Source: Eisenbergiella porci (GTDB lineage: Bacteria > Bacillota > Clostridia > Lachnospirales > Lachnospiraceae). Taken from it: 32,731 nucleotides of DNA. The position numbers and the translations under genes were made by a program. Positions 8,113-26,244 of the stretch are shown here, piece by piece. Location: positions 1 through 32,731 of the forward strand of contig NZ_VUMI01000064.1 of NCBI RefSeq assembly GCF_009696275.1, read 5' to 3'. Position 1 is the stretch's first letter. Every line of letters starts with the position of its first letter. Under the pieces are notes generated by a model. It ran no database searches. It saw nothing but the letters and a program-made list of their open reading frames with translations, and had not been told where the DNA came from.

Positions 8113-8757
8113 CTATTTACCGGGCTTTTCCAGGCACTCCTCCGCGTTGGCGATGGTTACCTTATAGTAAGGCAGATAAATATACCTCCCGTTCTCAAAT
8201 TCCATATCCTCCGGCACGCTCCCCGAAACAAGAGAAACCGCCAGCTTGGCCATTGCCGCGGCCTGCCCCTCCTTATCGTTATAGACGGTCCCGGCCAGCT
8301 TTGCATCCATTACTGCCCTCAGCCCCGCATCCGTACCGTCAATCCCTAAAAACACGGGAAAAGCGGACTCCGTGATATTCAGCTTCGCATAAGCGTCAAT
8401 TGCCCCCAGCGCCATATCATCATTATTCGCAAGCACCAGCTCAATCTCATTGGAATGCTGGCCGATCATCTGCATCATCCGGTTCTGGGCCTGCGCCCGG
8501 TTCCAGTTGGCGACGCCGTAGCTCAGCTTTTCCAGCTCAATCCCGTTATTTTTCAGCGTATCCACCGCATTTTCCGTGCGGATGATGGAATCCTGATGCC
8601 CCGGCTCCCCCTCCAGCACCACATACTGAATCTTTCCGTCCCGGTTGCGGTTCACCCGGCGGTCCGAATGAATCAGTTCAGCCGCAAGCTCCCCCTGCAT
8701 CACTCCCGACTGCTTCGCTTTTGCCCCCACATAATAAAGCTTCTCCCACTGCATCAT
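8113..8757 (-). pseudogene. MglB-like galactose/glucose-binding protein, N-terminally truncated
   Basis: The frame encodes the last two thirds of a type I periplasmic binding protein: KLYYVGAKAKQSGVMQGEL, an EF-hand-like calcium loop (NRNRDGKIQ), VVLEGEPGHQDS, VLANNDDMALGAIDAY, FLGIDGTDAGLRAV and LAGTVYNDKEGQ. Full-length MglB homologues carry a signal peptide plus ~110 more residues before this point. Here only 25 bases separate the fragment from the stop codon of the preceding gene, and an in-frame TAG lies just upstream. No signal peptide remains, so the product could not reach the cell surface. mglA and mglC, normally next, are absent. Best read as a deletion remnant of an mgl-type operon. 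Confidence 0.8.
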
Positions 8758-8782
8758 ATCCTCGGCGCACTACCCCATCATC

Positions 8783-9757
8783 CTACTGGCTCATCGTAAA
8801 AATAATTTCCTGATTTTCTTTCGAAAACAGCGTATCCCTGCGAAGGACGGTATAGGAAACCGTCCGGTCCTGCATTTTATGGAAAAAACGGGTGAGACTC
8901 CCCGCCGCCTCCGCCAGGCTCTGATAACCCACATTGAATTCATCCGGCGCCACCAGACAGCCCGCAATGCCCGTATCCAGATAATAAACCGCTTCCGTGG
9001 AATTACCGATGCCATACACCAGCGCCCCATGCAGATTATTTGCGGCGGCGTACTCACCGGCCATGGTAAAGCTGTTGTCATCCAATGCAATCACAAAATC
9101 CACCGCCGGCTGGGCTTTCAAAAGAACCTTTCCCTCTTCGGAAAAGGGGGCCGAAACTGACCAACTGATACCGGCCTGCGTCTTTCCCACAGTCTCCATG
9201 AATCCTCTTCTCCGCTCAAGGGACGCCTGAGAATCCCCCGTCCCGGAAAAAATCCCCAACGTTTTTCCGCTCAGGTTCCCACTGTAATCCTTCAGCAGTT
9301 CCTCCGCCAAGGCGGCTTCCATGGCATAATGATTCGGTCCCACGACAGGAAGCCGTTCCCCACCGCCGCCTTCGGCCCCCGTGTGCTCCGTCAGCAGCAC
9401 CGGGATCCGGTTTGCCATTTTCCTTAACATCTCTTCGGAACCAGGGACCGGTTGCACTATGACCGCGGCGGCGCCGTTATCTATTTCCCTCTCAATCAGA
9501 CTCTTCTCCTCTTCCACAGTTAACGCGCCGCCTGTGCTGACAACAAACATCCGGATTCCCAGATCCTGCGCCGCCATCTTCAGCCCGTACTGAAAGGCGG
9601 CCCACTGGTTATCCTCGGAACCCTGGATAATCACGGAAATCCTGTCCTGCTCCTTTCCGTTTTTCTCCTGCACCATGATAATCGCCACGGCAATTACCAT
9701 AAAGGCCAGAAGGGCCTCTGCCAGAATAAACATTTTTTTGCTGTTTTTCATTTTCAC
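8783..9757 (-). CDS. Membrane-anchored type I sugar-binding (sensor) protein
   Basis: A 324-residue protein. An N-terminal helix (residues ~8-29, MFILAEALLAFMVIAVAIIM) has no lipobox, so it reads as a membrane anchor. The rest is a Peripla_BP_4-like fold (ISVIIQGSEDNQWAAFQYGL; AAAVIVQPVPGSEEML; TLGIFSGTGDSQASLERRRG; VIALDDNSFTMAGEYA). It sits between a kinase tail and an MglB-like remnant, the usual order in Lachnospiraceae sugar-sensing operons. There such proteins are thought to present ligand to a YesM-type kinase rather than to a transporter. The frame is intact but its partners are not. The start codon is weakly supported (AGGTG close to the ATG). Confidence 0.75.
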   Translation of the reverse strand: MKMKNSKKMFILAEALLAFMVIAVAIIMVQEKNGKEQDRISVIIQGSEDNQWAAFQYGLKMAAQDLGIRMFVVSTGGALTVEEEKSLIEREIDNGAAAVIVQPVPGSEEMLRKMANRIPVLLTEHTGAEGGGGERLPVVGPNHYAMEAALAEELLKDYSGNLSGKTLGIFSGTGDSQASLERRRGFMETVGKTQAGISWSVSAPFSEEGKVLLKAQPAVDFVIALDDNSFTMAGEYAAANNLHGALVYGIGNSTEAVYYLDTGIAGCLVAPDEFNVGYQSLAEAAGSLTRFFHKMQDRTVSYTVLRRDTLFSKENQEIIFTMSQ

Positions 9758-9785: not shown

Positions 9786-10184
9786 CTACCTCTCTTTGCC
9801 GTTCATTTCCTCCCGGTTGAATATGTGCCCCTTCTCCAGGATTTTTCTATTTTCCTCCGTATACGGAACCGCCGGAAGGCGGACAGAGACGGTGGTGCCC
9901 TCATCCGGTTCACTTTCCACCGTAAGGCCATACTCTTTTCCGAACAGGATTTGAATCCGGTTGTTTACATTTACAAGGCCTACCCCGGAGCCACGCTTTC
10001 GAAGCCTGCCACTGTCCGTAAGCAGGAAGCGCACCTCTTCCTCCGACATCCCGATTCCGTTATCCGCCACCGCCAGAATGACGCTTCCCTCCAGAAGCCT
10101 TCCGGTCAGTATTGATAAGACGATATCATCTTTCTTTTCTGCCATATTTTTTACTCCTCTGTTATAAAAACGCCTGCTTCCCAA
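9786..10184 (-). pseudogene. C-terminal ATPase fragment of a YesM/LytS-type histidine kinase
   Basis: About 130 residues covering only the end of a HATPase_c domain: VADNGIGMSEEEV (G1-type box), RKRGSGVGLVNVNNRIQILFG (G2-type box) and ESEPDEGTTVSVRLP. The N box is cut off (YNRGVKN where NALYHGVKN-like sequence is expected). The sensor, membrane, HAMP and phosphoacceptor parts are all missing. The fragment begins immediately behind the terminator of the 10246-11442 gene, so the junction has removed the front of the kinase. A fortuitous GAGGAG plus ATG at 10145 could still allow a short peptide to be made, but it cannot be a working kinase. Confidence 0.8.
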
Positions 10185-10190
10185 AAGAGA

Positions 10191-10220
10191 TTATTAGGGA
10201 GAATTTCTTCTCCCTAATAA
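10191..10220 (-). terminator. Terminator after the permuted sugar-binding lipoprotein gene
   Basis: A perfect 13-bp stem (10208-10220 with 10191-10203) with a four-base loop is followed on the minus strand by TCTCTTTT. It starts 26 bases after the stop codon. Confidence 0.75.
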
Positions 10221-10245
10221 CCTGTCCGGCTCTCACTGCTATATC

Positions 10246-11442
10246 TTACTGATCGAGCAGGGATGTATAAGACGCTGCGTTGTCTGTCTTAACCATATTG
10301 ATGGCAAATGCATCATACTGGCTGGGGTTCCCGAGGCGGTTGGTAATGTTGGACTCTGTCTGTCCGTCGCCGCCGATGTAATCAACATCAAGGTTGAGGA
10401 GCTTATCATACTTCTGAAGAAGCGGCTGATAGGTGGAGCCAAGGAAGTTATCGGAGGAATTGTAGATATTCAGCCATACCTTCTTTACAGGACTTGTTCC
10501 CTCATCCAGCTGATTGGATACCGGTGCATAAACCATGGTGGAATCCATAAAATCCTGATAGTTATCAGCGGTAACCGCAACATTCAGTGCATAATAGGAA
10601 CGTTCTTCCTCTCTGTATACATAGACATCCTCGCTCAGGACATTTCCCGCTGCATCTGCAGTGGCGATACCGGTATTGATATCAACTCCGTCAAGGGCGT
10701 TGCGCAGGACACGGAGTGTCAGATATGCCTGTACGTCCGCATGCTGGCTGATGGTTCCGCCGTAGCCCTCTGCGATAGCGGCCACTGCGTCGCTGTTGGC
10801 ATCATAGCCAAAGGTGGGAACCTTGTTGTCCTTGGACCATGCGTTGAACATTGACATGCCCATGCCGTCATTATTGGATACCACAACATCAATCTGATCA
10901 CCGAAGGAGGAAGACCATGTCCCGATGGCATTGCCGGCCGTAGCCGCATCCCATGTGGCTCCTGCGGAGTTCTTCATTTCCTGGGAGGCCAGCTCACGGA
11001 CAATGTATGTCTTCCCGTTTATCTCAAGGCTTCCGTCCTGTACGGCTGTCGCGGTGCCGTCCCCACTGCGGTCAATGGCGTCTATGTTTTTCTCGATATA
11101 ATCCTTTACCATGGTTCCCTGAAGCTCAGCGCCCTGGTTGGCATCAAAGCCTACATAATAGGTATCCTTGTTATAATTCAATGCCGCCATATCAAGCTGG
11201 CCCGTAGCGCTGCTGGAGGGCTGGCGGTTAAACCATACAAGAGGTTTATCCTTATTCGCCACGGTTCCCCCGTCGGCCGGCGTCGTTTCTTTGGCCGGCG
11301 CCGCGGTTTCCGTTCCCGCCGCTGTTGTCTCCGCACCTGCTGCTGGCGACTCCGCCGCCGCAGGCTTCTCACTGGAACCGCACGCGGCCAGGGATAAGCT
11401 TAACAGCACTGCCATTGTCATGCAACCTAATTTTCTCTTCAT
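10246..11442 (-). CDS. Circularly permuted MglB-like sugar-binding lipoprotein
   Basis: A 398-residue lipoprotein. The signal peptide is residues 1-20, with lipobox LAAC and Cys21, then an Ala/Thr/Pro/Glu-rich linker to ~65. Residues 66-110 (KPLVWFNRQPSS; TYYVGFDANQGAELQGTMV) match the middle of MglB. They are followed by VVVSNNDGMGMSMFNAW and FGYDANSDAVAAIAEGYGGT, which match its second half. Residues 321-398 (KVWLNIYNSSDNF; QTESNITNRLGNPSQYDAFA; INMVKTDNAAS) match the MglB N-terminus ([43 protein letters not shown]). The order of the fold is therefore permuted. The beta strand after the calcium-type loop (DRSGDG, then TATAVQDG at ~124-136) appears shortened. I start at the ATG at 11442 because it begins the signal peptide and has AAGGGAG six bases upstream. 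Ligand binding for an ABC transporter is inferred; no transporter genes remain nearby. Confidence 0.82.
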   Translation of the reverse strand: MKRKLGCMTMAVLLSLSLAACGSSEKPAAAESPAAGAETTAAGTETAAPAKETTPADGGTVANKDKPLVWFNRQPSSSATGQLDMAALNYNKDTYYVGFDANQGAELQGTMVKDYIEKNIDAIDRSGDGTATAVQDGSLEINGKTYIVRELASQEMKNSAGATWDAATAGNAIGTWSSSFGDQIDVVVSNNDGMGMSMFNAWSKDNKVPTFGYDANSDAVAAIAEGYGGTISQHADVQAYLTLRVLRNALDGVDINTGIATADAAGNVLSEDVYVYREEERSYYALNVAVTADNYQDFMDSTMVYAPVSNQLDEGTSPVKKVWLNIYNSSDNFLGSTYQPLLQKYDKLLNLDVDYIGGDGQTESNITNRLGNPSQYDAFAINMVKTDNAASYTSLLDQ

Positions 11443-12161: not shown

Positions 12162-13688
12162 TCATGGCTGCCGGCCCAGACGGTATATATTGAACCAGTA
12201 GCGTTCCAACAGGCAGCTGTCCGCAGTCTCCACGGACTTAATTCCCCTTTTCTGCCATTCCTTAAGGATTCCGTCCCTGGCAAGGCCGCTGCCGATGAAC
12301 CACACAGTTTTTCCGCTCTCCAGCTGCTGATCTATCCATTCCTCCCCGGGCACGGCATATACTCCCGGGAACATCTCCCGTATCAGCGTTTCCGGCGTTC
12401 CTCCGTACAGATAGCTTTCCCTAGGAAGATACCAGCCGGTTACGGCCTGCACCTGGTCAAAATTAAACAGGACGATATCCTCCGCCCCTATTTTGGCCAG
12501 CTCCTCTTCAGTTCTCGTCATCTGTTCTTTTTTCATCACCTCTCCCTGCACAAAGGCGGAATAATCAGCCGCCCCCACAAAGAGAAGCACCAACAGCGAA
12601 GGCGCCAGCATCAGAGCCTTCTTCTGCCTGCTCAGGAAATAGGAAAAACAGAACCAGAAGCAGCCTGCCGCAGGAAGCATATAGCGGTAAATGAAAACCG
12701 GCCTCATCAGGAAAGACACCGCAATTCCGAAAAGCGCAGTCCCCGCCAGCACGCAGAGGCCCAAAAAAGCATATCCGTCCCGTCCCGGATTTCGTTCCCT
12801 GTCCTTACGCTTTAAAAACGCATGGATAAGGAAAGCCGCCAGCAAAGCAAAAAGGACCACCGCCAGGCCGTAATCCAAAAGCTGATACCCGGTGGAGGGC
12901 TTCAGCATGAATTTTACGCAGCCGCCGAAGCAGCTTAAGGTCAGCGGAAGAATCCAGTAGCTTTCCCGCACCTGGGACACCTGGGAAACGGCCGCGGGCA
13001 GCCAGGGCAGATATGCCAGTACGGAGATTCCCGCACAGAACAGCCATACCAGCAGATACTTCACCCGTTCATCCTTCTTCTTAACAGACAAAAGCACAGC
13101 CACGCCCACATACTGCGCCGCCGCCGCAACCGCCGCAAAATAATGGGTATAGGCCGCTGCGATCCCATAAACAGTGAAGGCGGCCCAATGCCTTTTCCCG
13201 CCTCCCTCCAAAAGCTCTCCCGCATGCAGGAATGCCGCCGTAATAAAAAACAGGGCAAAGCCGTACATCCTGATTTCCGTCGTATAGTTAGCCATCTGCG
13301 GCATCGCCAGGATGCAGAAGGAAAAAAGCCCTGAACAAAGCCAACCGTATTTCTTCCTTATAAGAGTCAGGGAATACCCCAGCAGCGCCAGATAAGGCAG
13401 CACGGAAACCACCTTGCAGATAATTACGGCATCCGCCCCCGGCGCAAATAAATGCACCAGCTCCACAGCAGCCTTTACAATCAGATAATAAAGCGGTGGG
13501 TGAACGTCCCTGGCCGCAAGCGAAATCATCCGCCCCACCGGCTGTGAAACGAAGCCCACCGTAAAAAGCTCATCATACCAGATATCGCTGCTGAAGCATA
13601 AAAACAAACTGCAGCAGGCCATTCCCAGGGCGCACACAGACAGCAGGATACCTGCTGTCTGCCGCCATGTCTTTTTTTCATTACTCAT
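12162..13688 (-). CDS. GT39/GT-C-like multi-spanning membrane glycosyltransferase
   Basis: A 508-residue polytopic protein, roughly ten to eleven transmembrane helices. The first loop holds DIWYDELFTV, an acidic pair of the kind used for catalysis by GT-C enzymes, and RDVHPPLYYLIVK, the typical next motif of PMT/ArnT-like proteins. An aromatic YTTEIRMYGFALFF segment also fits the family. A soluble C-terminal domain (~395-508) follows the last helix. Members transfer sugars from lipid-linked donors at the outer face of the membrane; donor and acceptor cannot be told here. It lies behind thrS, separated by that gene's terminator. An 84-base gap follows before the DUF1540 gene. Confidence 0.75.
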   Translation of the reverse strand: MSNEKKTWRQTAGILLSVCALGMACCSLFLCFSSDIWYDELFTVGFVSQPVGRMISLAARDVHPPLYYLIVKAAVELVHLFAPGADAVIICKVVSVLPYLALLGYSLTLIRKKYGWLCSGLFSFCILAMPQMANYTTEIRMYGFALFFITAAFLHAGELLEGGGKRHWAAFTVYGIAAAYTHYFAAVAAAAQYVGVAVLLSVKKKDERVKYLLVWLFCAGISVLAYLPWLPAAVSQVSQVRESYWILPLTLSCFGGCVKFMLKPSTGYQLLDYGLAVVLFALLAAFLIHAFLKRKDRERNPGRDGYAFLGLCVLAGTALFGIAVSFLMRPVFIYRYMLPAAGCFWFCFSYFLSRQKKALMLAPSLLVLLFVGAADYSAFVQGEVMKKEQMTRTEEELAKIGAEDIVLFNFDQVQAVTGWYLPRESYLYGGTPETLIREMFPGVYAVPGEEWIDQQLESGKTVWFIGSGLARDGILKEWQKRGIKSVETADSCLLERYWFNIYRLGRQP

Positions 13689-16499: not shown

Positions 16500-18323
16500 A
16501 TGCAAGAAGCCAAATCACCAAAGAAACCACTACTCTACTATTACTGTATTGCCATGCTTGTCCTTCTGGTCCTGAACGCCTTTCTTTTTCCCAGGCTCAT
16601 GTCCGCCCAGGTAGAAGAAGTCGGCTACAACACCTTTCTTGAAATGATGGAAAAGAAAGAAATCGCCCAGGTACAGATTGAAAGCAACCAAATTGTATTT
16701 GCGGACAAAAATTCACCCACCGGTTTTTATAAAACAGGCCCTATGGAAGATCCTTCCCTTGTGGACCGGCTTTATGCATCCGGAGCCACCTTCGGCACGG
16801 AAATTGTAAAACAGCAGTCCTTCCTCGTCACCTTCCTGCTGACCTGGGTTCTGCCCCTCGTTGTAATGATAGCCATCGGCCAGTTCCTGATGCGCAAAAT
16901 CATGAACAGCGGAGGCGGCGTCAATTCCATGTCCTTCGGAAAAAGCAACGCCAAGGTATACGTCCAGTCCGAAACAGGCATTAAATTCGCAGACGTGGCC
17001 GGCGAGGACGAAGCCAAAGAGGTGCTCTCCGAACTGGTAGACTACCTCCATGATCCCAAAAAATATCAGGAAATCGGCGCATCCATGCCCAAAGGCGCCC
17101 TCCTTGTAGGCCCTCCCGGAACCGGAAAAACCCTGCTCGCCAAGGCGGTGGCCGGCGAAGCCAACGTTCCCTTCTTCTCCATTTCAGGCTCTGAATTCGT
17201 GGAAATGTTCGTAGGCGCCGGCGCGGCCAAGGTCAGGGACCTGTTCAAGCAGGCCAACGAAAAAGCCCCCTGTATCGTCTTCATCGATGAAATAGATACC
17301 ATCGGCAAAAAACGTGACGGCGGCGGCTTTTCAGGAAATGACGAACGGGAACAGACTCTGAACCAGCTCCTTACAGAAATGGACGGATTCTCCAGCAACA
17401 ACGGCGTCCTCATCCTGGCCGCTACCAACCGTCCCGAATCCCTGGATCCCGCGCTCCTGCGCCCCGGCCGTTTCGACAGGCGTGTGCCGGTGGAGCTTCC
17501 CGATTTGAACGGCAGGATTGCCATACTGAAGGTTCACGCCCAGAAAGTAAAGCTGGGTGACAATGTAGATTTTGCAGCCATCGCCAGAATGGCCGCAGGC
17601 GCTTCCGGCGCCGAGCTGGCCAACATGGTCAACGAAGCCGCCCTGAGCGCAGTCCGCGCAGGCCGCCGCTTCGTCACCCAGACCGATTTGGAAGAAAGCG
17701 TGGAAGTAGTCATTGCCGGTTACCAGAAAAAAGACCGCATTTTAAGCGACCGGGAAAAAATGATCGTTTCCTATCACGAAATCGGCCACGCCCTCGTTGC
17801 CGCCAGACAGACCAACTCCGCCCCTGTCACCAAAATCACTATTATCCCCAGGACCTCCGGCGCGCTGGGCTACACCATGCAGGTGGATCAGGGCGAACAT
17901 AACCTGCTGAGCAAGGAAGAACTGGAAAATAAAATCGCCACCTTCTGCGGCGGCCGCGCTGCGGAAGAAATCATCTTCAACAGCATCACCACCGGAGCCT
18001 CCAACGACATCGAACAGGCCACCAAGCTGGCCCGCGCCTGCATCACCCGATACGGCATGTCAGAAGATTTCGACATGGTGGCCCTGGAAACCGTCACCAA
18101 CCAATACCTGGGCGGCGACACCTCCCTGGCCTGCTCCGAACATACCGCAGCGGAAATCGACAGGCTCGTCGTAGCCATGGTCAAAAAAGAACACGCCAAG
18201 GCCTGCGACATCCTCCGCAGCAATATAGGCAAACTCCATGAACTGGCCAAGTTCCTCTACGAAAAAGAAACCATCACGGGGGATGAATTCATGGCTATCC
18301 TGGATGGGGATGGAGTGAAATAA
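16500..18323 (+). CDS. ftsH: ATP-dependent zinc metalloprotease FtsH
   Basis: A 607-residue membrane protease. It has two N-terminal transmembrane helices (~12-32 and ~108-128) around a small extracytoplasmic domain. The AAA+ domain carries Walker A GPPGTGKT (~203), Walker B IVFIDEID (~260) and the second region of homology NRPESLDPALLRPGRFDRR (~312). The M41 peptidase has HEIGH (~426) as zinc site. The family unfolds and degrades misfolded membrane proteins and regulatory substrates. The pore-adjacent VGAGAAKVRDLF replaces the common GASRVRDLF, and HEIGH replaces HEAGH; both look conservative. A monocistronic gene with its own promoter; AAAGGAG lies seven bases before the ATG. It is convergent with the broken regulator at 18432. 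Confidence 0.96.
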   Translation: MQEAKSPKKPLLYYYCIAMLVLLVLNAFLFPRLMSAQVEEVGYNTFLEMMEKKEIAQVQIESNQIVFADKNSPTGFYKTGPMEDPSLVDRLYASGATFGTEIVKQQSFLVTFLLTWVLPLVVMIAIGQFLMRKIMNSGGGVNSMSFGKSNAKVYVQSETGIKFADVAGEDEAKEVLSELVDYLHDPKKYQEIGASMPKGALLVGPPGTGKTLLAKAVAGEANVPFFSISGSEFVEMFVGAGAAKVRDLFKQANEKAPCIVFIDEIDTIGKKRDGGGFSGNDEREQTLNQLLTEMDGFSSNNGVLILAATNRPESLDPALLRPGRFDRRVPVELPDLNGRIAILKVHAQKVKLGDNVDFAAIARMAAGASGAELANMVNEAALSAVRAGRRFVTQTDLEESVEVVIAGYQKKDRILSDREKMIVSYHEIGHALVAARQTNSAPVTKITIIPRTSGALGYTMQVDQGEHNLLSKEELENKIATFCGGRAAEEIIFNSITTGASNDIEQATKLARACITRYGMSEDFDMVALETVTNQYLGGDTSLACSEHTAAEIDRLVVAMVKKEHAKACDILRSNIGKLHELAKFLYEKETITGDEFMAILDGDGVK

Positions 18324-18431
18324 TTTTGTTTGTTGGCAGCCCTCCCAGCCCCGCAGCGTCAGCTTAGCGGGCCGTGTCCTGGCTCCCGGGATGAGAAGGC
18401 TCCGGTGGGGGATGGGGAGGGTATTTTTCAT

Positions 18432-18620
18432 TTACCAGTCAGACCGGGCATACAGATATCGGAAATGAATATCCGGCCTCTTTTCCCGAATCAGCTTCAT
18501 TCCTTCCTGTCCGTCGCCGGCGGTCCCCACCACCCGGCAGTTGTACTTTTCCCATTGAATCGTCATTGTAAGTCCCCTTACAATAACTGGTTCATCATCC
18601 ACAATCGCCACCTTGTACAT
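18432..18620 (-). pseudogene. Receiver-domain fragment of a YesN-type response regulator
   Basis: It begins cleanly (MYKVAIVDDEPVIVRGLTMT) with AGGGGGAT before the ATG, and runs through EGMKLIREKRPDI. At that point the frame shifts by one base. The continuation ISDICMPGLTG, containing the phospho-acceptor Asp, is readable only in the next frame (bases ~18470-18440). One extra T in GATATTCATTTCC would explain it. After GLTG the sequence stops altogether, so the rest of the receiver and the AraC-type DNA-binding domain are missing. It is the last gene of the broken sugar locus, facing ftsH. Confidence 0.85.
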
Positions 18621-18749
18621 ACGAATTATCCCCCTGTGTCATGTACTTTCAGTATTTCAGTTACAATGCTGCCGAAGGCTGAACCGAACTGTTTCATTTT
18701 TGCTTTTCCAGAATTCCTCTGGGAAAGGCGAAGCAAAAGCTTTTGCGCA

Positions 18750-19409
18750 TTATCCCTTAATGGCTCCTGCGGTCATACCCTTGATGATGTATTTCTGCAG
18801 GCATACATAAACGATAATCAGCGGAACAACAATCAGGGAAACCGCGGCTGCCATCAGGCCGTAATCCGTACCCTGTCTGCCGAAGATTTCATTCAGCAGT
18901 CTGGTAATTGCCCAGTGCGCAGGGAAACGCAGGAAGAAGGTCTGGGTAAACAGGTCGTTGTAGCTCCAAAGGAAGCTGAAAATGCCAACCGTGGCAAAGG
19001 AGGGCTTTGTCAGCGGCATAATAACCTTGAAAAAAATCTGGTAAGCGTTGCAGCCTTCCATGTAGGCCGCTTCTTCCAGCGCCACTGGAAGCCCCTTAAT
19101 ATAGCCGGAAAGCACCACGATGGCAAAGGCCAGGTTTCCTGCTATCTGCGGCAGCGCGCAGGATAACAGCGCAAGCCAGAGGTTGTTGGTATTAACGATG
19201 CGCCAGCTGGATTCCATACGGAATACGGGAATAATCGTTGCAAATACAGGGAACATCATGGCTGCGATAACCAGGCTGTTCATCAGTCCGCTGCCTTTGA
19301 ATTTATAACGGACCAGCGCATAGGAGGCAAGCCCTGCAAACAGGATAACCACTGCGGCCACCGTGCAGGAAATCAGCAGGCTGTTTCTGTAGGCGGTAAA
19401 AATGCTGAA
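18750..19409 (-). pseudogene. Carbohydrate ABC permease (MalG type), N-terminally truncated
   Basis: About 220 residues are readable from FSIFTAYRNSLLISCTVAA to QKYIIKGMTAGAIKG. They include the EAA loop that docks on the ATPase (EEAAYMEGCNAYQIFFKVIM, then PLTKPSFA) and the remaining transmembrane helices. The first ~60 residues, with the first helix, are absent. The frame simply emerges at ~19409 from within the preceding binding-protein remnant, with no start codon or ribosome site. The product would be the sugar-uptake inner-membrane subunit CUT1-2 if whole. The terminal KG ending is typical of a complete C-terminus. Confidence 0.85.
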
Positions 19410-20050
19410 TTTATGGTAATATACCAGCCTGAAGAAAGTCCGCTGACGATATCTGTGGATTTACGCTCGTTAGCGCCGGGGATAAATGTAACGGTAAAGT
19501 TATCGATATCTTCGGTAGCTTCTGCAATACCGCCAATTTTCCAGGAACCGTCTACATAGAATGCGGACTTGCCGTCGATAAAGCTCTGGAATACTTCAGA
19601 AGCTTCTGCGGTATTGGTATTTTCAGAGAAATAGCCTTTTTCAAATACGTCTTTGATATCTGCCAGTCCTGCTGCCCATGCTTTTCCTGCTGCATCATCC
19701 AGAACTGCCGGAACGGATGCATGTGTGGCCGGTGTGTCATGGTTGTATATATTTCTGCAGGACATGCAGGAATCATTTCATCCTTCATGTTGGATGCATA
19801 GTCCGGATATACGGAACGGATTTCATCAATGGTAACTACCTTGCCGGCCTCTACAAACGGGTTGGAGTCGTTGCCGTTGAAGTAGAACAGTACGTCGGGT
19901 TCTGCACCTGCTTCGAAGTCTGAGATATGATTATCCATTTTCCGCTCACAGATTACATATGCATTGCTGCGCCCTTCATGATACAGGCTGCTTCTTCCTG
20001 CGCTTTCCCTGGCGGCGTAATCCTCCGCCCAGTCCCTTCCCAGATCCACT
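19405..20050 (-). pseudogene. Sugar ABC solute-binding protein remnant (CUT1 type)
   Basis: Two pieces lie in different frames. Around 19990-19755: KMDNHISDFEAGAEPDVLFY, NGNDSNPFVEAGKVV and SVYPDYASNMKDEMIP. Around 19760-19410: IYNHDTPATHASVPAVLDD, DVFEKGYFSENTNTAE, FIDGKSAFYVDGSWKIGG and GLSSGWYIT. Between MIP and IYNHD, family members have many more residues, so a deletion with a frameshift lies near 19755-19770. The signal peptide is missing at the front, where the sequence runs into kinase remnant. The C-terminus is missing at the back, where GWYIT runs into permease sequence at ~19410. These proteins capture oligosaccharides outside the cell. Confidence 0.8.
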
Positions 20051-20054
20051 GTCC

Positions 20055-20549
20055 ATCTATGCTCACATCGTAATCCACAAACCAGGGAATTCCCTCAATG
20101 CTCTGGAATACGCTGTCTTTGTCAACATCCATAACAATAACCGCGTACGGTTCATAGGCGGGCGTCATGATATTCCGGATCAATACAGATGATCCTTCTG
20201 CGTCGCACAGCCTATACCGGTATCTATTTCCTCCGATACCTGAGCCACGATATCACGTGCCTCATTCTCAAACTCCTTGATGCTGCCATAATAATTGCTC
20301 CTGTAGGTAAAATACACATCCTCAGGCCACCCGCATTTCACATATTTCCACCGCCGTATCCATGGATTTTTCGATATTATCCTGCATCTGGACGGAGAAC
20401 CGGTTAGACACGTAATACAGGATGGCCATGGTTAAAATGGCCAGCGGCAGAAGCCAGCACATCAGCATCAGAATGGTCATGCTCCATTTCAGCTGCGCGG
20501 GCTGCCTCTTGTTCCCCGAAAGGCGGTGTGATTTCCATATCTGTTTCAT
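20055..20549 (-). pseudogene. YesM-type sensor histidine kinase, N-terminal remnants
   Basis: It starts well, with GGGGGAG before the ATG at 20549, MKQIWKSHRLSGNKRQ, a transmembrane helix (TILMLMCWLLPLAILTMAIL) and the sensor beginning (SMDTAVEICEM). The frame then breaks. EDVYFTYRSNYYGSIKEFEN to QVSEEIDTG reads in a second frame (~20325-20200), and EPYAVIVMDVDKDSVFQSIE, GIPWFVDYDVSIDGQW in a third (~20185-20060). The remainder of the sensor, HAMP, phosphoacceptor and ATPase domains are gone. Each surviving piece is itself clean, which suggests several small deletions rather than slow decay. Confidence 0.78.
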
Positions 20550-20574
20550 TGTCTCCCCCCTCATGGTAGTATAA

Positions 20575-20607
20575 AGAAAGGAGCCAGTAAACTACCGGCT
20601 CCTTTCT
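20575..20607 (-). terminator. Terminator after the hydrogenase gene
   Basis: A perfect 11-bp stem (20597-20607 with 20575-20585) is followed on the minus strand by TTATAC. The T tract is partly inside the stem (CTTTCTTTAT). It separates the hydrogenase transcript from the kinase remnant. Confidence 0.7.
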
Positions 20608-20718
20608 GAACACTATCGTTCCTGTAAACTCTCACTCCATTTTCGTCTGCCCCGGAGGCATTGCCGGCGTACAGGCCCTGCCGCCCTACGGCAGCCGGTT
20701 CTTGTGCTTCGTCAGCTT

Positions 20719-22176
20719 TTAACGATGCATGGAGAAGGAATCCATATCATAATTTTTCAGATTCTCATGAACGCCTCTGGCGTCTGCCTGTGAAATCAGT
20801 TTATCCCTGTCCTTCTTGGCAGCCATCGCTGCTTTATGGCGGCTGGGTCCTCCGACACATCCTCCTTCACAGATCATGCCTTCAATGAAGTCCTCAGGCA
20901 GCTTGCCCAGCTTGAACAGCATCAGCGCCTTCTTGCATTCCGCAATGCCGCTGCACCTTGCCACCTTGATATCCGTGCTTTCGCCGCTTTCCTTCAGGCA
21001 TTCCACAACAGCATCCGTAACGCCGCCGCCATTACCGAAACGCTTTCCGAATACGCTTGCTTCCTGGCTGGTGTTCTCTTCGGGCTCCAGTTCAACACCC
21101 TTTGCACGCATCATGGCGCGGATTTCACCGAAGGTAAGTACGAAATCCGCATTTCCTTCAATGCTCTTGTCCTGCGCTTCGGATTTCTTGGCAATGCAGG
21201 GCCCGATAAATACGGTAACGGTTTCGGGATCCTTTGCTTTCAGCATTCTGGATACTGCGCACATCGGGGAAACGGTAGTGGAAATGTTTCCAACCAGTTC
21301 CGGGAAATGCTTTTTAATATAATTTACAAATGCAGGACAGCAGGAGGTAGTCATTTTCTTACCTTCCTTAAAGCTCTCCGCCCATTCCTCTGCCTCAAAT
21401 GCAGCGGTCATATCGCCGCCCAGGCCTACTTCAACAAAATCGGCAAATCCCAGCTTCTTCATCGCTGTTCTCCAGCTTGCCATGGTGATGTTCTCACCGA
21501 ACTGGCCTTCGCCGGCAGGTGCCAGCATGGCAACTACCTTTTTGCCTTCACGGATTGCGTTAATTATGTCTACGATACTGGTCTTGGAAGCAATCGCTCC
21601 GAAAGGACAATTATGGATACACTGCCCGCACTGGATACACTTGGATTCGTCGATCTGGCATACGCCGTGCTCATCCATGGTGATTGCACTGACAGGGCAG
21701 CTCTTCATACAGGGCCTCTGGATTTTTACGATAGCAGAATAGGAACATGCCTGCGCACATTTACCGCAGCTCTTACATTTTTCGGGATCGATGTAGGAAC
21801 GATCATTTCCAATGGTAATCGCGCCGAAATTACATGACTGCTTACAGGATTTTGCAAGACAGCCCTGGCAGAGGTCAGTTACCACATAGCCGGAGGAGAT
21901 GGGACATTCCTCACAGGCTGAGTTGATAACCTGTACAATGTTGCTGCTTTCTCTGTTGCCGGGGCACTTGCCCTCAGCCAGCCTTACTCTCTGACGGATG
22001 ATTTCACGTTCCTTGTAAATGCAGCAGCGGAAATGCGCCTCGGGACCGGGAATCATTTCATAGGGAATATTCTCTTTTTTTTCATCCAGCTCACCGGCAA
22101 AGGCCAGCTTGGCAACTTCCGTGAGCACCTCGTGCTTAATCTTTAAGATGGTAGCGTCATCAGATACTATACCCAT
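20719..22176 (-). CDS. Monomeric [FeFe]-hydrogenase-like iron-sulfur protein
   Basis: A 485-residue protein from the ATG at 22176 (MGIVSDDATILKIKHEVLTE); the longer open frame upstream is a terminator hairpin. Several 4Fe-4S cluster motifs come first: CQGCLAKSCKQSC, CKSCGKCAQAC with CMKSC (~135-160) and CIQCGQCIHNC (~182). The H-cluster domain follows with its three motifs, TSCCPAF (~277), GPCIAKKSE (~325) and CEGGCVGGP (~438), so all four cluster cysteines are present. The layout fits the group B hydrogenases common in gut Clostridia. Those are presumed to exchange electrons with ferredoxin, though activity of the group is less proven than for group A. It lies directly downstream of PFOR, a natural electron source. 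It has its own terminator downstream. Confidence 0.87.
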   Translation of the reverse strand: MGIVSDDATILKIKHEVLTEVAKLAFAGELDEKKENIPYEMIPGPEAHFRCCIYKEREIIRQRVRLAEGKCPGNRESSNIVQVINSACEECPISSGYVVTDLCQGCLAKSCKQSCNFGAITIGNDRSYIDPEKCKSCGKCAQACSYSAIVKIQRPCMKSCPVSAITMDEHGVCQIDESKCIQCGQCIHNCPFGAIASKTSIVDIINAIREGKKVVAMLAPAGEGQFGENITMASWRTAMKKLGFADFVEVGLGGDMTAAFEAEEWAESFKEGKKMTTSCCPAFVNYIKKHFPELVGNISTTVSPMCAVSRMLKAKDPETVTVFIGPCIAKKSEAQDKSIEGNADFVLTFGEIRAMMRAKGVELEPEENTSQEASVFGKRFGNGGGVTDAVVECLKESGESTDIKVARCSGIAECKKALMLFKLGKLPEDFIEGMICEGGCVGGPSRHKAAMAAKKDRDKLISQADARGVHENLKNYDMDSFSMHR

Positions 22177-22235
22177 ACTTTTATGTTTATCCTCTTTCCT
22201 GATTGTTAAAAAATTAACTGGTACATTTAAAAACA

Positions 22236-22268
22236 AAGCTGGATTTGAGACAAATCCCAAGCCAGCTT
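22236..22268 (-). terminator. Terminator between PFOR and the hydrogenase gene
   Basis: Nested stem AAGCTGG/CCAGCTT with an inner ATTTG/CAAAT pair; on the minus strand it is followed by TTTGTTTTT. Two more hairpins precede it in the PFOR 3' region: 22349-22373 (AATATACCT/AGGTATATT) and 22317-22334 (GGGAGCC/GGCTCCC). Partial read-through into the hydrogenase is possible, since I see no strong promoter between the terminator and 22176. Confidence 0.7.
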
Positions 22269-22375
22269 ATATTTTTAGCAAAAAGTAAAGTTGTACGGCG
22301 CCTTACCGGGGTGGCCGGGAGCCCTGCGGCTCCCGCCTCGTCCGGCGTAATATACCTTTCACAGAGGTATATTGA

Positions 22376-25300
22376 TTAGTTATCTCCGTACAGAACCTGC
22401 AGCTTCTGCAGATAATCATATCTTTCCTTAGCGTTTTCAGCAGCCTGAGCCTGCAGTCTTGCAGCCTTTTCAGCATCCTTCAGCGCCAGGGAGGTGTATC
22501 TTACTTCACCGCCGATGAATTCCTGGAATTCCTTGGTCGGAGCCTTGCTGTCAACAACGAATTTCTTCTCTGCAGCAGGGTTGAAACGGAACAGATTCCA
22601 GTAGCCGGTCTCTACAGCCAGCTTCTCTTCTGTCTGAGCCTTGCTCATGCCCTTCTTGATACCATGGTTGATACAAGGAGCGTAAGCGATGATCAGTGAA
22701 GGTCCCGGATAAGCTTCTGCTTCAGCAATAGCCTTAACAGTCTGGTTGTAATCAGCACCCATGGAAATCTGTGCTACATATACATAACCATAGCTCATTG
22801 CAATGCTTGCCAGGTCTTTCTGCTTCACTTCTTTACCGCCGGCTGCGAACTGTGCAACAGCGCCGGTAGGTGTAGCCTTGGAAGCCTGTCCGCCTGTATT
22901 GGAATAAACTTCGGTATTAAATACCATTACATTGATATCTTTTCCGCTGGCGAGGATATGGTCAACACCGCCGAATCCGATATCATATGCCCATCCGTCA
23001 CCACCGAATACCCACTGGGATTTCTTGGAGAGGAAGTCTTTGTTCTTAACGATATCCTGGCATACGCCGCAGTCTTTGCCTTCCAGAGCCGCTACCAGCT
23101 TGTCGGTTGCAGGTCCGTTGGTAACGCCGCAGTTGTAGGTATCCAAGTATTCCTGGCAAACAGCCTTAACAGCTTCGTCATCGGTATTGGCAAGAACGTC
23201 TTCAACCTTTGCCTTCAGTCCGCCTCTGATAGCGTTCTGGGCAAGCAGCATACCCATACCAAACTCAGCATTGTCTTCAAACAGGGAGTTGTCCCAAGCG
23301 GGTCCCTTGCCTTCTTTGTTTACGGTATAAGGTGTGCTCGGTGAGGAGTTACCCCAGATAGAAGAACATCCTGTAGCGTTGGCAATATACATTCTGTCGC
23401 CGAACAGCTGTGTAATCAGTTTAGCGTAAGGTGTCTCGCCGCATCCTGCGCAGGCTCCGGAGAACTCAAGCAGAGGCTGTTTGAACTGAGATCCCTTAAC
23501 GGTTGTTTCTTTGAATTTCTCAAGTACTTCGGGCTTCTCGGAAACGGTCTGTCCATAGTTGAAGATTTCCTGCTGTGCCAGCTGGGTTTCAAGAGGAGAC
23601 ATGCTCAGAGCCTTCTCGCCTCTCATACCAGGACATACGTTAGCGCAGGAACCACATCCTGTACAGTCAAGTACGGATACGGAAACCGCAAATTTCTTTC
23701 CGGGCATTCCTGTCATATCAAGAGCCTTCATTCCTTCAGGAGCCTTAGCCAGTTCTTCCTCTGTCATAACAACAGGACGGATTACTGCATGAGGACATAC
23801 ATAGGAACAGAAGTTACACTGGATACACTTGGTAGGATCCCAGGTAGGAACGTTAACCGCAATACCTCTCTTCTCGTAAGCGGAGGATCCGGAAGGAGTG
23901 GAACCGTCCACATAATCCTTGAATGCGGATACAGGCAGGGTATTGCCTTCCTGTGCACTTACCTTGGTTTGGATATTGTTAACGAAATCAACAACGTCTT
24001 TTCTGTCGCCGCTTACTACTGCATAATCAAGGCCTTCGTCTTCGCAGTCCTTCCAGCTTTCAGGAACTTCTACCTTAACAACGCCCTTGGCGCCGGCATC
24101 GATAGCTGCCCAGTTCTTCATAACAACGTCTTCGCCCTTACGTCCGTAGGTAGCCTTTGCAGCAGCCTTCATCAGTTCGTTTGCCTTCTCGGCAGGAATG
24201 ATTCCGGTCAGTTCAAAGAATGCGGACTGAAGGATTGTGTTGATACGTGTGGGGCCCATGCCTGTTTCAATACCAATCTTAACACCGTCGATGGTGTAGA
24301 AGTTGATGTTGTGCTCAGCGATGAATTTCTTCACCTGTCCGGGCAGATGCTTCTCCAGCTCTTCTGCATTCCATGCGCAGTTCAGCAGGAAGGTACCGCC
24401 GTCAACCAGTTCCTGAACCATGTTGTACTTACGTACATAGGCAGGATTGTGGCATGCTACGAAGTTAGCCTGACGGATCAGATATGTTGATTTAATCTTT
24501 TTATGTCCGAAACGTAAGTGGGACATGGTAACACCGCCGGACTTCTTGGAGTCATAGTCAAAATATGCCTGTGCATACATGTCGGTGTTGTCGCCGATAA
24601 TCTTAATGGAGTTCTTGTTGGCACCTACGGTACCGTCTGCGCCCAGACCCCAGAATTTACAGTTGGTTGTTCCTTCGGGAGTGGTAACCAGCTCAGCGCC
24701 CAGCTTCAGGGACAGATTGGTTACATCGTCTTCGATACCAACGGTGAATTTCTTCTTTTCGGTGTTGCCGTAAATTGCAACGATCTGTGCAGGAGTTGTA
24801 TCCTTGGAACCCAGTCCGTAACGTCCTGTGAATACCGGAACGGAATCGAACTTGGAGCCCTTCAGGGCAGCTACTACATCCAGGTAAAGAGGCTCACCCT
24901 GTGCACCGGGCTCTTTGGTTCTGTCCAGTACGGTGATCTGCTTTACAGTTTCGGGAATTGCTCCGATAAGAGCGTCTGCGCAGAAAGGTCTGTAAAGGCG
25001 AACCTTAACAACACCAACCTTGGCGCCTGTTGTCTTGATCATATAGTCGATGGTTTCTTCAATGGTATCATTTACGGAACCCATAGCTACGATTACGTGC
25101 TCAGCATCCGGAGCGCCGTAGTAATTGAACAGCTTGTAATCTGTTCCAATCTTCTCATTAACCTTGTCCATGTAGTCCTGAACAATTCCGGGAAGAGCAT
25201 CATAATAAGGGTTGCTTGCTTCTCTTGCCTGGAAGAAGATATCAGGGTTCTGTGCAGAACCTCTCTGGCAGGGATGGTTGGGATTCAGGGCACGCTTACG

Positions 25301-25909
25301 GAAAGCGTCAACTGCGTCCATATCCACCATATCCTTCAGATCTTCATAATCCCATGTCTCGATCTTCTGGATCTCATGGGAGGTACGGAATCCGTCGAAG
25401 AAGTTGATGAAAGGAATGCTTCCCTTGATAGCAGCCAGATGTGCCACTGCTGTCAGGTCCATAACTTCCTGAACGCTGCTTTCGCAGAGCATAGCGCAGC
25501 CTGTCTGACGGCATGCATAAACGTCGGAATGATCTCCGAAAATGCTCAGTGCGTGAGAAGCGATAGCTCTTGCGGAAACGTTGAATACACCGGGGAGCTG
25601 CTCGCCGGCAATCTTGTAAAGGTTCGGAATCATAAGAAGCAGACCCTGAGATGCCGTATAAGTGGTTGTCAGAGCACCAGCTGCCAGAGATCCGTGTACG
25701 GCACCTGCCGCACCTGCTTCGGACTGCATCTCGGTAATATGCACGATCTGTCCGAACATATTCTTTCTGTCTGCGGTTGCCCATTCATCAGTAGCTTCTG
25801 CCATAGGTGATGAAGGGGTAATAGGATAGATAGCCGCAACATCGGTAAATGCGTATGACGCATGCGCTGCTGCATGGTTACCATCCATGGTTTTCATTTT
25901 CCTTGCCAT
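22376..25909 (-). CDS. nifJ: Pyruvate:ferredoxin oxidoreductase (single-chain)
   Basis: An 1177-residue protein of typical single-subunit length. Domain I carries YPITPSSPMAE near the start. An inserted ferredoxin domain has CIQCNFCSYVCP (~695) and CTGCGSCANVCP (~751). The proximal-cluster cysteines begin in GACAGCGETPYAKL, with NATGCSSIWG after. The thiamine diphosphate site has GDGWAYDIGFGGVDH (~973) and NTEVYSNTGGQ. It oxidises pyruvate with CoA to acetyl-CoA and CO2 and reduces ferredoxin, in the cytosol. AAAGGAAGG lies before the ATG. Upstream on the other strand is a LysR regulator. Codon choice is strongly biased, as expected for a highly expressed gene. Confidence 0.97.
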   Translation of the reverse strand: MARKMKTMDGNHAAAHASYAFTDVAAIYPITPSSPMAEATDEWATADRKNMFGQIVHITEMQSEAGAAGAVHGSLAAGALTTTYTASQGLLLMIPNLYKIAGEQLPGVFNVSARAIASHALSIFGDHSDVYACRQTGCAMLCESSVQEVMDLTAVAHLAAIKGSIPFINFFDGFRTSHEIQKIETWDYEDLKDMVDMDAVDAFRKRALNPNHPCQRGSAQNPDIFFQAREASNPYYDALPGIVQDYMDKVNEKIGTDYKLFNYYGAPDAEHVIVAMGSVNDTIEETIDYMIKTTGAKVGVVKVRLYRPFCADALIGAIPETVKQITVLDRTKEPGAQGEPLYLDVVAALKGSKFDSVPVFTGRYGLGSKDTTPAQIVAIYGNTEKKKFTVGIEDDVTNLSLKLGAELVTTPEGTTNCKFWGLGADGTVGANKNSIKIIGDNTDMYAQAYFDYDSKKSGGVTMSHLRFGHKKIKSTYLIRQANFVACHNPAYVRKYNMVQELVDGGTFLLNCAWNAEELEKHLPGQVKKFIAEHNINFYTIDGVKIGIETGMGPTRINTILQSAFFELTGIIPAEKANELMKAAAKATYGRKGEDVVMKNWAAIDAGAKGVVKVEVPESWKDCEDEGLDYAVVSGDRKDVVDFVNNIQTKVSAQEGNTLPVSAFKDYVDGSTPSGSSAYEKRGIAVNVPTWDPTKCIQCNFCSYVCPHAVIRPVVMTEEELAKAPEGMKALDMTGMPGKKFAVSVSVLDCTGCGSCANVCPGMRGEKALSMSPLETQLAQQEIFNYGQTVSEKPEVLEKFKETTVKGSQFKQPLLEFSGACAGCGETPYAKLITQLFGDRMYIANATGCSSIWGNSSPSTPYTVNKEGKGPAWDNSLFEDNAEFGMGMLLAQNAIRGGLKAKVEDVLANTDDEAVKAVCQEYLDTYNCGVTNGPATDKLVAALEGKDCGVCQDIVKNKDFLSKKSQWVFGGDGWAYDIGFGGVDHILASGKDINVMVFNTEVYSNTGGQASKATPTGAVAQFAAGGKEVKQKDLASIAMSYGYVYVAQISMGADYNQTVKAIAEAEAYPGPSLIIAYAPCINHGIKKGMSKAQTEEKLAVETGYWNLFRFNPAAEKKFVVDSKAPTKEFQEFIGGEVRYTSLALKDAEKAARLQAQAAENAKERYDYLQKLQVLYGDN

Positions 25910-26244
25910 AAAAACCTTCCTTTCTTATCCTTTATAGATAATTAAATTTTTACAATGCATATGCGGACGCAATCAAACGCATGCATACGCACTTGCCCTT
26001 AAGGAACCCCTTGAGGGCTATTAAAAATTTATCTTATTGATATTCAATATTATACATCTAACATGCTCCGCATGGGTATACTGTTTTTATATGACAGTTA
26101 TATATTTTTTTATATATTCTATTGCTTTTTTTTACCGGAAACGCTATGCTTAGAGCAGGTTTCCGGCAATTGTACGGAAGCGGATACATTTTGTATACAA
26201 TGTATAAAATGAAATACAAACGCATATACATGGAAGGCTGTATT
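25910..26244. promoter_or_regulatory. Divergent control region between PFOR and the LysR gene
   Basis: A 335-base gap with no gene. It holds a 10-bp stem with a four-base loop (25995-26004 with 26009-26018, one G-T wobble on plus), which would lie in the PFOR leader. It also holds GCATATGC and GCATGC palindromes at ~25958-25985, and a minus-strand TATAAT at ~26050 without a good -35. Next to the LysR gene is a near-palindrome (ATTTTGTATACAATGTATAA at ~26189-26208) that fits a LysR-type autoregulatory site. No transcript start can be fixed from sequence alone. Confidence 0.5.

Follow-up and report, generated by a model that had tools for sequence, protein, structure and literature searches.

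A circularly permuted MglB-like lipoprotein of the TpMglB-2 type with a 48-residue internal deletion, encoded in a probably inactivated sugar-uptake operon of Eisenbergiella porci

The closest described system is TpMglB-2 (Tp0684) of Treponema pallidum, whose crystal structure was solved at 2.05 A (Brautigam et al., 2016; PMC4990184). The published description is of a circular permutation, for which the names "Type Ic/Cluster Bc" were proposed, and the order of the N-lobe strands was given as 5-4-6-1-2-3 versus 2-1-3-4-5-6 in E. coli MglB. In the crystal structure 5JX2, the permuted portion of the N-lobe is formed by the C-terminal piece of TpMglB-2 (PMC4990184). The binding of D-glucose was measured, and in that report the measurement within the permuted family concerns the T. 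pallidum protein only. The same topology was found in treponemes and in a "Gram Positive/Gut" clade (PMC4990184). The permuted topology is thus already known, Gram-positive gut bacteria included, and has been in print since 2016; the first-pass annotation, which knew of no described natural example, is corrected by this paper. In Pfam, the permuted C-terminal piece is represented as the family Peripla_BP_7, a name under which a literature search gave no match.

In this work, the window is a stretch of 32,731 nucleotides from Eisenbergiella porci, and it contains a 398-aa reading frame (10246..11442, minus strand) that was studied by its open reading frame, Pfam and PDB matches and relatives. 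The previously annotated signal peptide and linker are present at the start of the frame, and a lipobox-like LAAC motif was recognized there by eye. The Peripla_BP_4 match covers residues 91-252 and enters the profile only at position 93 of 258, while Peripla_BP_7 (PF18610) matches residues 320-389 (E 4.1e-43) with 145.8 bits against a curated cut-off of 36.8. Conversely, the NCBIfam equivalog of classical MglB (NF011924) reached 68 bits versus a cut-off of 420 and covered only positions 105-304 of its 329. In the PDB sequence search, residues 53-254 paired with E. coli-type MglB chains starting at about residue 69, and the top three of 17 matches were the TpMglB-2 chains 5JX2 (E 2.5e-74), 6BGC and 6BGD. 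The C-terminal part of MglB therefore leads and the N-lobe piece (Peripla_BP_7) ends the protein, which is the order of TpMglB-2-like proteins. As judged from these matches, the rotated order of parts is real, and descent places the gene in the TpMglB-2 family, whose members are circularly permuted glucose/galactose-binding lipoproteins; the permuted three-dimensional fold would follow from homology to 5JX2.

The origin of the last ~80 residues deserves separate consideration. A profile of this piece built from 15 sequences matched 5JX2 residues 305-385 (E 9.1e-21), and up to an E value of 1 it had no PDB match beyond the three TpMglB-2 chains. Run on thin profiles with Neff about 1.3, hhalign matched the piece to the classical MglB N-lobes of three operons with a probability of 1.6% at an E value of 0.032. 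The earlier claim that the MglB C-terminal part comes first and the N-lobe last is thus upheld by the entry point of Peripla_BP_4, the terminal Peripla_BP_7 and the TpMglB-2 matches; its direct equation of the last piece with the classical N-lobe found no significant match with these thin profiles. The piece might derive from another gene instead of from a rotation of MglB, a possibility raised by the authors of the TpMglB-2 paper, where the pair compared is 13% identical (PMC4990184); the missing profile match agrees with this value. On the other hand, the strands and binding residues that the piece provides in TpMglB-2 are equivalent to those in the N-lobe of E. coli MglB (PMC4990184), and profiles as thin as those compared here are too thin to decide. 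We regard such an origin as very improbable; it would be compatible with our preferred explanation.

Relatives were collected in one scan of GTDB representatives, from which the best 80 of 421 stretches encoding a relative were examined. The relatives in the same order that the first-pass annotation proposed to search for do exist: the titles of these best 80 are mostly Lachnospiraceae and other Clostridia, with three Oscillospiraceae (L045, L058, L098) and one Bacteroidales MAG (L033). By a motif pattern, the permuted order with the GD-GHND motif lies in one frame in 79 of the 80 (L065 was unscored), and in all 80, L065 included, a single match spans at least 80% of the query. The alignment with five other genomes has the permuted order as well. 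Together with the solved structure of TpMglB-2, this supports the proposal of a natural circular permutant. A normal-order gene rearranged by assembly was considered and rejected, since the 79 scored relatives all carry the rotated order; no gene in normal order was seen among the relatives. PF18610 occurs once in the source genome, and it is present in 6 of 61 close genomes and in 2 of 299 genomes of a phylum-wide draw, the source genome being counted in both.

In three relatives (G012, G001 and G015), the gene opens a seven-gene order comprising permuted mglB, mglA, mglC, a response regulator, a histidine kinase, a TorT-like protein and classical mglB, where the regulator, kinase, MglA and MglC were named by reading their sequences. 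G012 and G001 belong to the same genus as the source genome (G000), and their loci are L007 and L008, respectively. Permuted mglB, mglA and mglC start 64 of the 65 loci having more than 4.5 kb downstream, the remaining one being without an mglC match. All seven genes are present in 43 of the 57 loci with more than 9.5 kb downstream, only the first three in 10 and an intermediate set in 4. Classical MglB at the end of the operon thus accompanies permuted MglB at its start, beside a two-component system and a TorT-like protein (L007 6979-17334). The MglC permeases of four loci are 551-562 aa long (L007 9932-11620; L008 9554-11242; L009 10209-11873; L011 464-2119), with a charged N-terminal extension of ~200 residues preceding the membrane part; the paralogue on C114 of the source genome has 356 aa. 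From the operon order of the intact relatives, we suppose that the permuted lipoprotein, anchored outside the membrane, would close on a hexose and pass it to the ABC transporter formed by MglA and MglC, the products of the adjacent genes. What lies downstream, namely the response regulator, kinase, TorT-like protein and classical MglB, probably serves to sense the sugar and to control the operon.

The window gene differs from the scored relatives by an internal deletion. At a 7-bp repeat, GACGGCA (11055..11061, minus strand), where the blastn blocks overlap by 7 bases and the junction sequences could be read, 144 bp of G012 and G001 are absent and the reading frame is kept. The core of the window copy has 319 residues versus exactly 367 in the 79 scored relatives, and the missing 48-residue segment is kept in every one of these 79 (80 examined, L065 unscored). 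In the genome scan, the open frame of the gene is 411 aa, a length that by itself conceals the deletion. By hand mapping, the segment holds the positions of TpMglB-2 H89, D91 and R95, i.e., three of the ten sugar-binding positions described for that protein, which are invariant in 19 intact aligned sequences; by alignment it also spans a strand and a helix of the C-lobe. The seven remaining positions were hand-mapped to N72, W164, N191, D214, Q233, D331 and F333 of the window protein, so the copy does not have a complete core with all sugar-binding residues. One could imagine that the shortened permutant still works, binding a new ligand or acting in sensing alongside the intact TorT-like protein, for its frame, signal peptide, linker and hairpin are all kept and its N/S is of the purifying type. 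The loss of three binding residues with a C-lobe strand and helix, the deletion of the partner genes described below and the absence of such a deletion from all 79 scored relatives make this extremely improbable.

Two more deletions affect the genes downstream. A strong hairpin (10188..10223, minus strand; -28.7 kcal/mol, z -4.69) follows the permuted gene, and L007 has this hairpin too, differing by one paired base change. The first-pass annotation took it for a terminator; the hairpin itself is real, but it is intercistronic, because its L007 counterpart separates permuted mglB from mglA. Next comes a 132-aa fusion frame (9786..10184, minus strand) that joins in frame ~26 residues of the mglA start to the C-terminus of a histidine kinase (HATPase_c). 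This second deletion (junction at 10081..10109, minus strand) runs from about mglA codon 26 to near the kinase end, by which the rest of mglA, mglC, the response regulator and most of the kinase were lost, a net loss of 6.5 kb compared with G012 and 6.8 kb compared with G001. The TorT-like sugar-binding/sensor protein (8783..9757, minus strand) is full length with 324 aa (324-328 aa in relatives); Peripla_BP_4 matches its residues 41-284, and TorT models match it below their cut-offs. At the third junction (8766..8784, minus strand), a net ~0.39 kb including the start of classical mglB is lost versus G012 and G001, leaving a stump of 214 aa (8113..8757, minus strand; 343-352 aa in relatives) that lacks the N-terminal part and enters Peripla_BP_4 at profile position 92. 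Two of the frames near the permuted gene are thus gene stumps. The missing mglA and mglC pieces were found on no other contig of the genome; the nearest paralogues, 53% and 40% identical, respectively, are both on C114 and adjoin a 399-aa MglB-like protein, so other CUT2-type transporters are present in the genome.

Besides the mgl operon, the window contains a second transport operon (18301-20720), which is reduced to pieces; its first permease is wholly gone. Compared with G012 and with G001 alike, it has undergone seven net losses, ranging from about 60 bp to 1.6 kb, and the two smallest of these may be ordinary spacer differences. The L101 counterpart, read from its sequence, encodes a kinase, a solute-binding protein and two permeases. 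N/S values for four pieces, all with small counts, included one clearly raised on the window branch, 0.63 (0.06 and 0.07 on the other two branches), and the others were 0.10 (0.08, 0.04), 0.00 (0.22, 0.00) and 0.38 (0.25, 0.18). It is conceivable, though quite unlikely in our estimate, that this lineage is losing two transport operons of a single contig through numerous recent deletions whose joints show little or no homology, at a pace outrunning point mutation, and that the shortened permutant is still made.

The N/S values per branch come from a three-way comparison of the window with G012 and G001. For the permuted gene, N/S was 0.152 on the window branch (0.146, 0.143), so that no substitution signal of decay was seen by this measure, and one has to suppose either that the deletion was recent or that the assembly is at fault. 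The TorT-like gene gave 0.456 (0.378, 0.562), the classical mglB stump 0.337 (0.268, 0.294), the kinase stump 0.333 (0.400, 0.467) and thrS 0.155 (0.195, 0.120). A membrane glycosyltransferase-like gene (12162-13688) was raised on the window branch, 0.783 (0.436, 0.350), and therefore a raised value occurs outside the mgl genes too. Genome-wide decay was not indicated by the 25 Peripla_BP_4 matches in the source genome, of which 24 lie in open frames of at least 331 aa and the exception is the window mglB stump (218 aa), nor by PF00528, for which 150 of 201 candidates were scored and nearly the whole profile was covered among the matches listed.

An assembly error is the main rival explanation. 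Contig pieces would have been misjoined, and the permuted-mglB operon of the organism would in truth be as intact as in its relatives. The clustering of several junctions on one contig, in the mgl operon and in the second operon, would fit, as would the assembly of 149 contigs, the N/S not raised in most pieces and the lack of premature stops in the four tested pieces of the second operon. However, thrS, an FtsH-like gene and a 5.5-kb block (20720-26236) between the damage are full length and aligned without such gaps, the three mgl junctions have no long repeat, and the missing mglA and mglC pieces were found on no other contig. We therefore consider misassembly unlikely. We hypothesize, with fairly good confidence, that the gene belongs to the TpMglB-2 family by descent and lies in a sugar-uptake operon recently inactivated in the source genome by three deletions, so that this copy most likely binds no sugar and plays no part in uptake. 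The PDB matches, the published permuted structure with its Gram-positive gut relatives, the conserved operon order, the 48 missing residues and the absence of mglA and mglC speak for this hypothesis; the still open frame, the in-frame first deletion and the unraised N/S of the permuted gene were counted against it. The first-pass annotation had expected a stable working permutant, an expectation hard to reconcile with the lost binding segment and the mglA and mglC deleted alongside.

Against the literature, the observation is ordinary, and the window copy has probably lost its function. The finding adds little new, as the topology, the glucose binding of one member and the occurrence in Gram-positive gut bacteria have all been published (PMC4990184). 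What is useful is the conserved seven-gene operon of Lachnospiraceae that pairs permuted and classical MglB, together with the warning that the window copy is damaged and ill suited to binding or structural studies. By comparison with TpMglB-2 (5JX2, 6BGC, 6BGD), the window protein shares the rotated order, the lipoprotein anchor and the same or a like residue at seven of ten sugar-binding positions, and the gene adjoins transporter genes in its intact relatives; it differs in the 48 residues lost with H89, D91 and R95 and in the deletion of its own mglA and mglC. The permuted mglB genes of G012 and G001 encode proteins 93% and 94% identical to that of the window, with collinear flanking genes, but are intact and stand within the seven-gene operon. 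Classical MglB of E. coli and Salmonella (NF011924) can be aligned over the first ~190 post-linker residues of the window protein, whereas the N-lobe piece, which comes first in the classical protein, comes last here.
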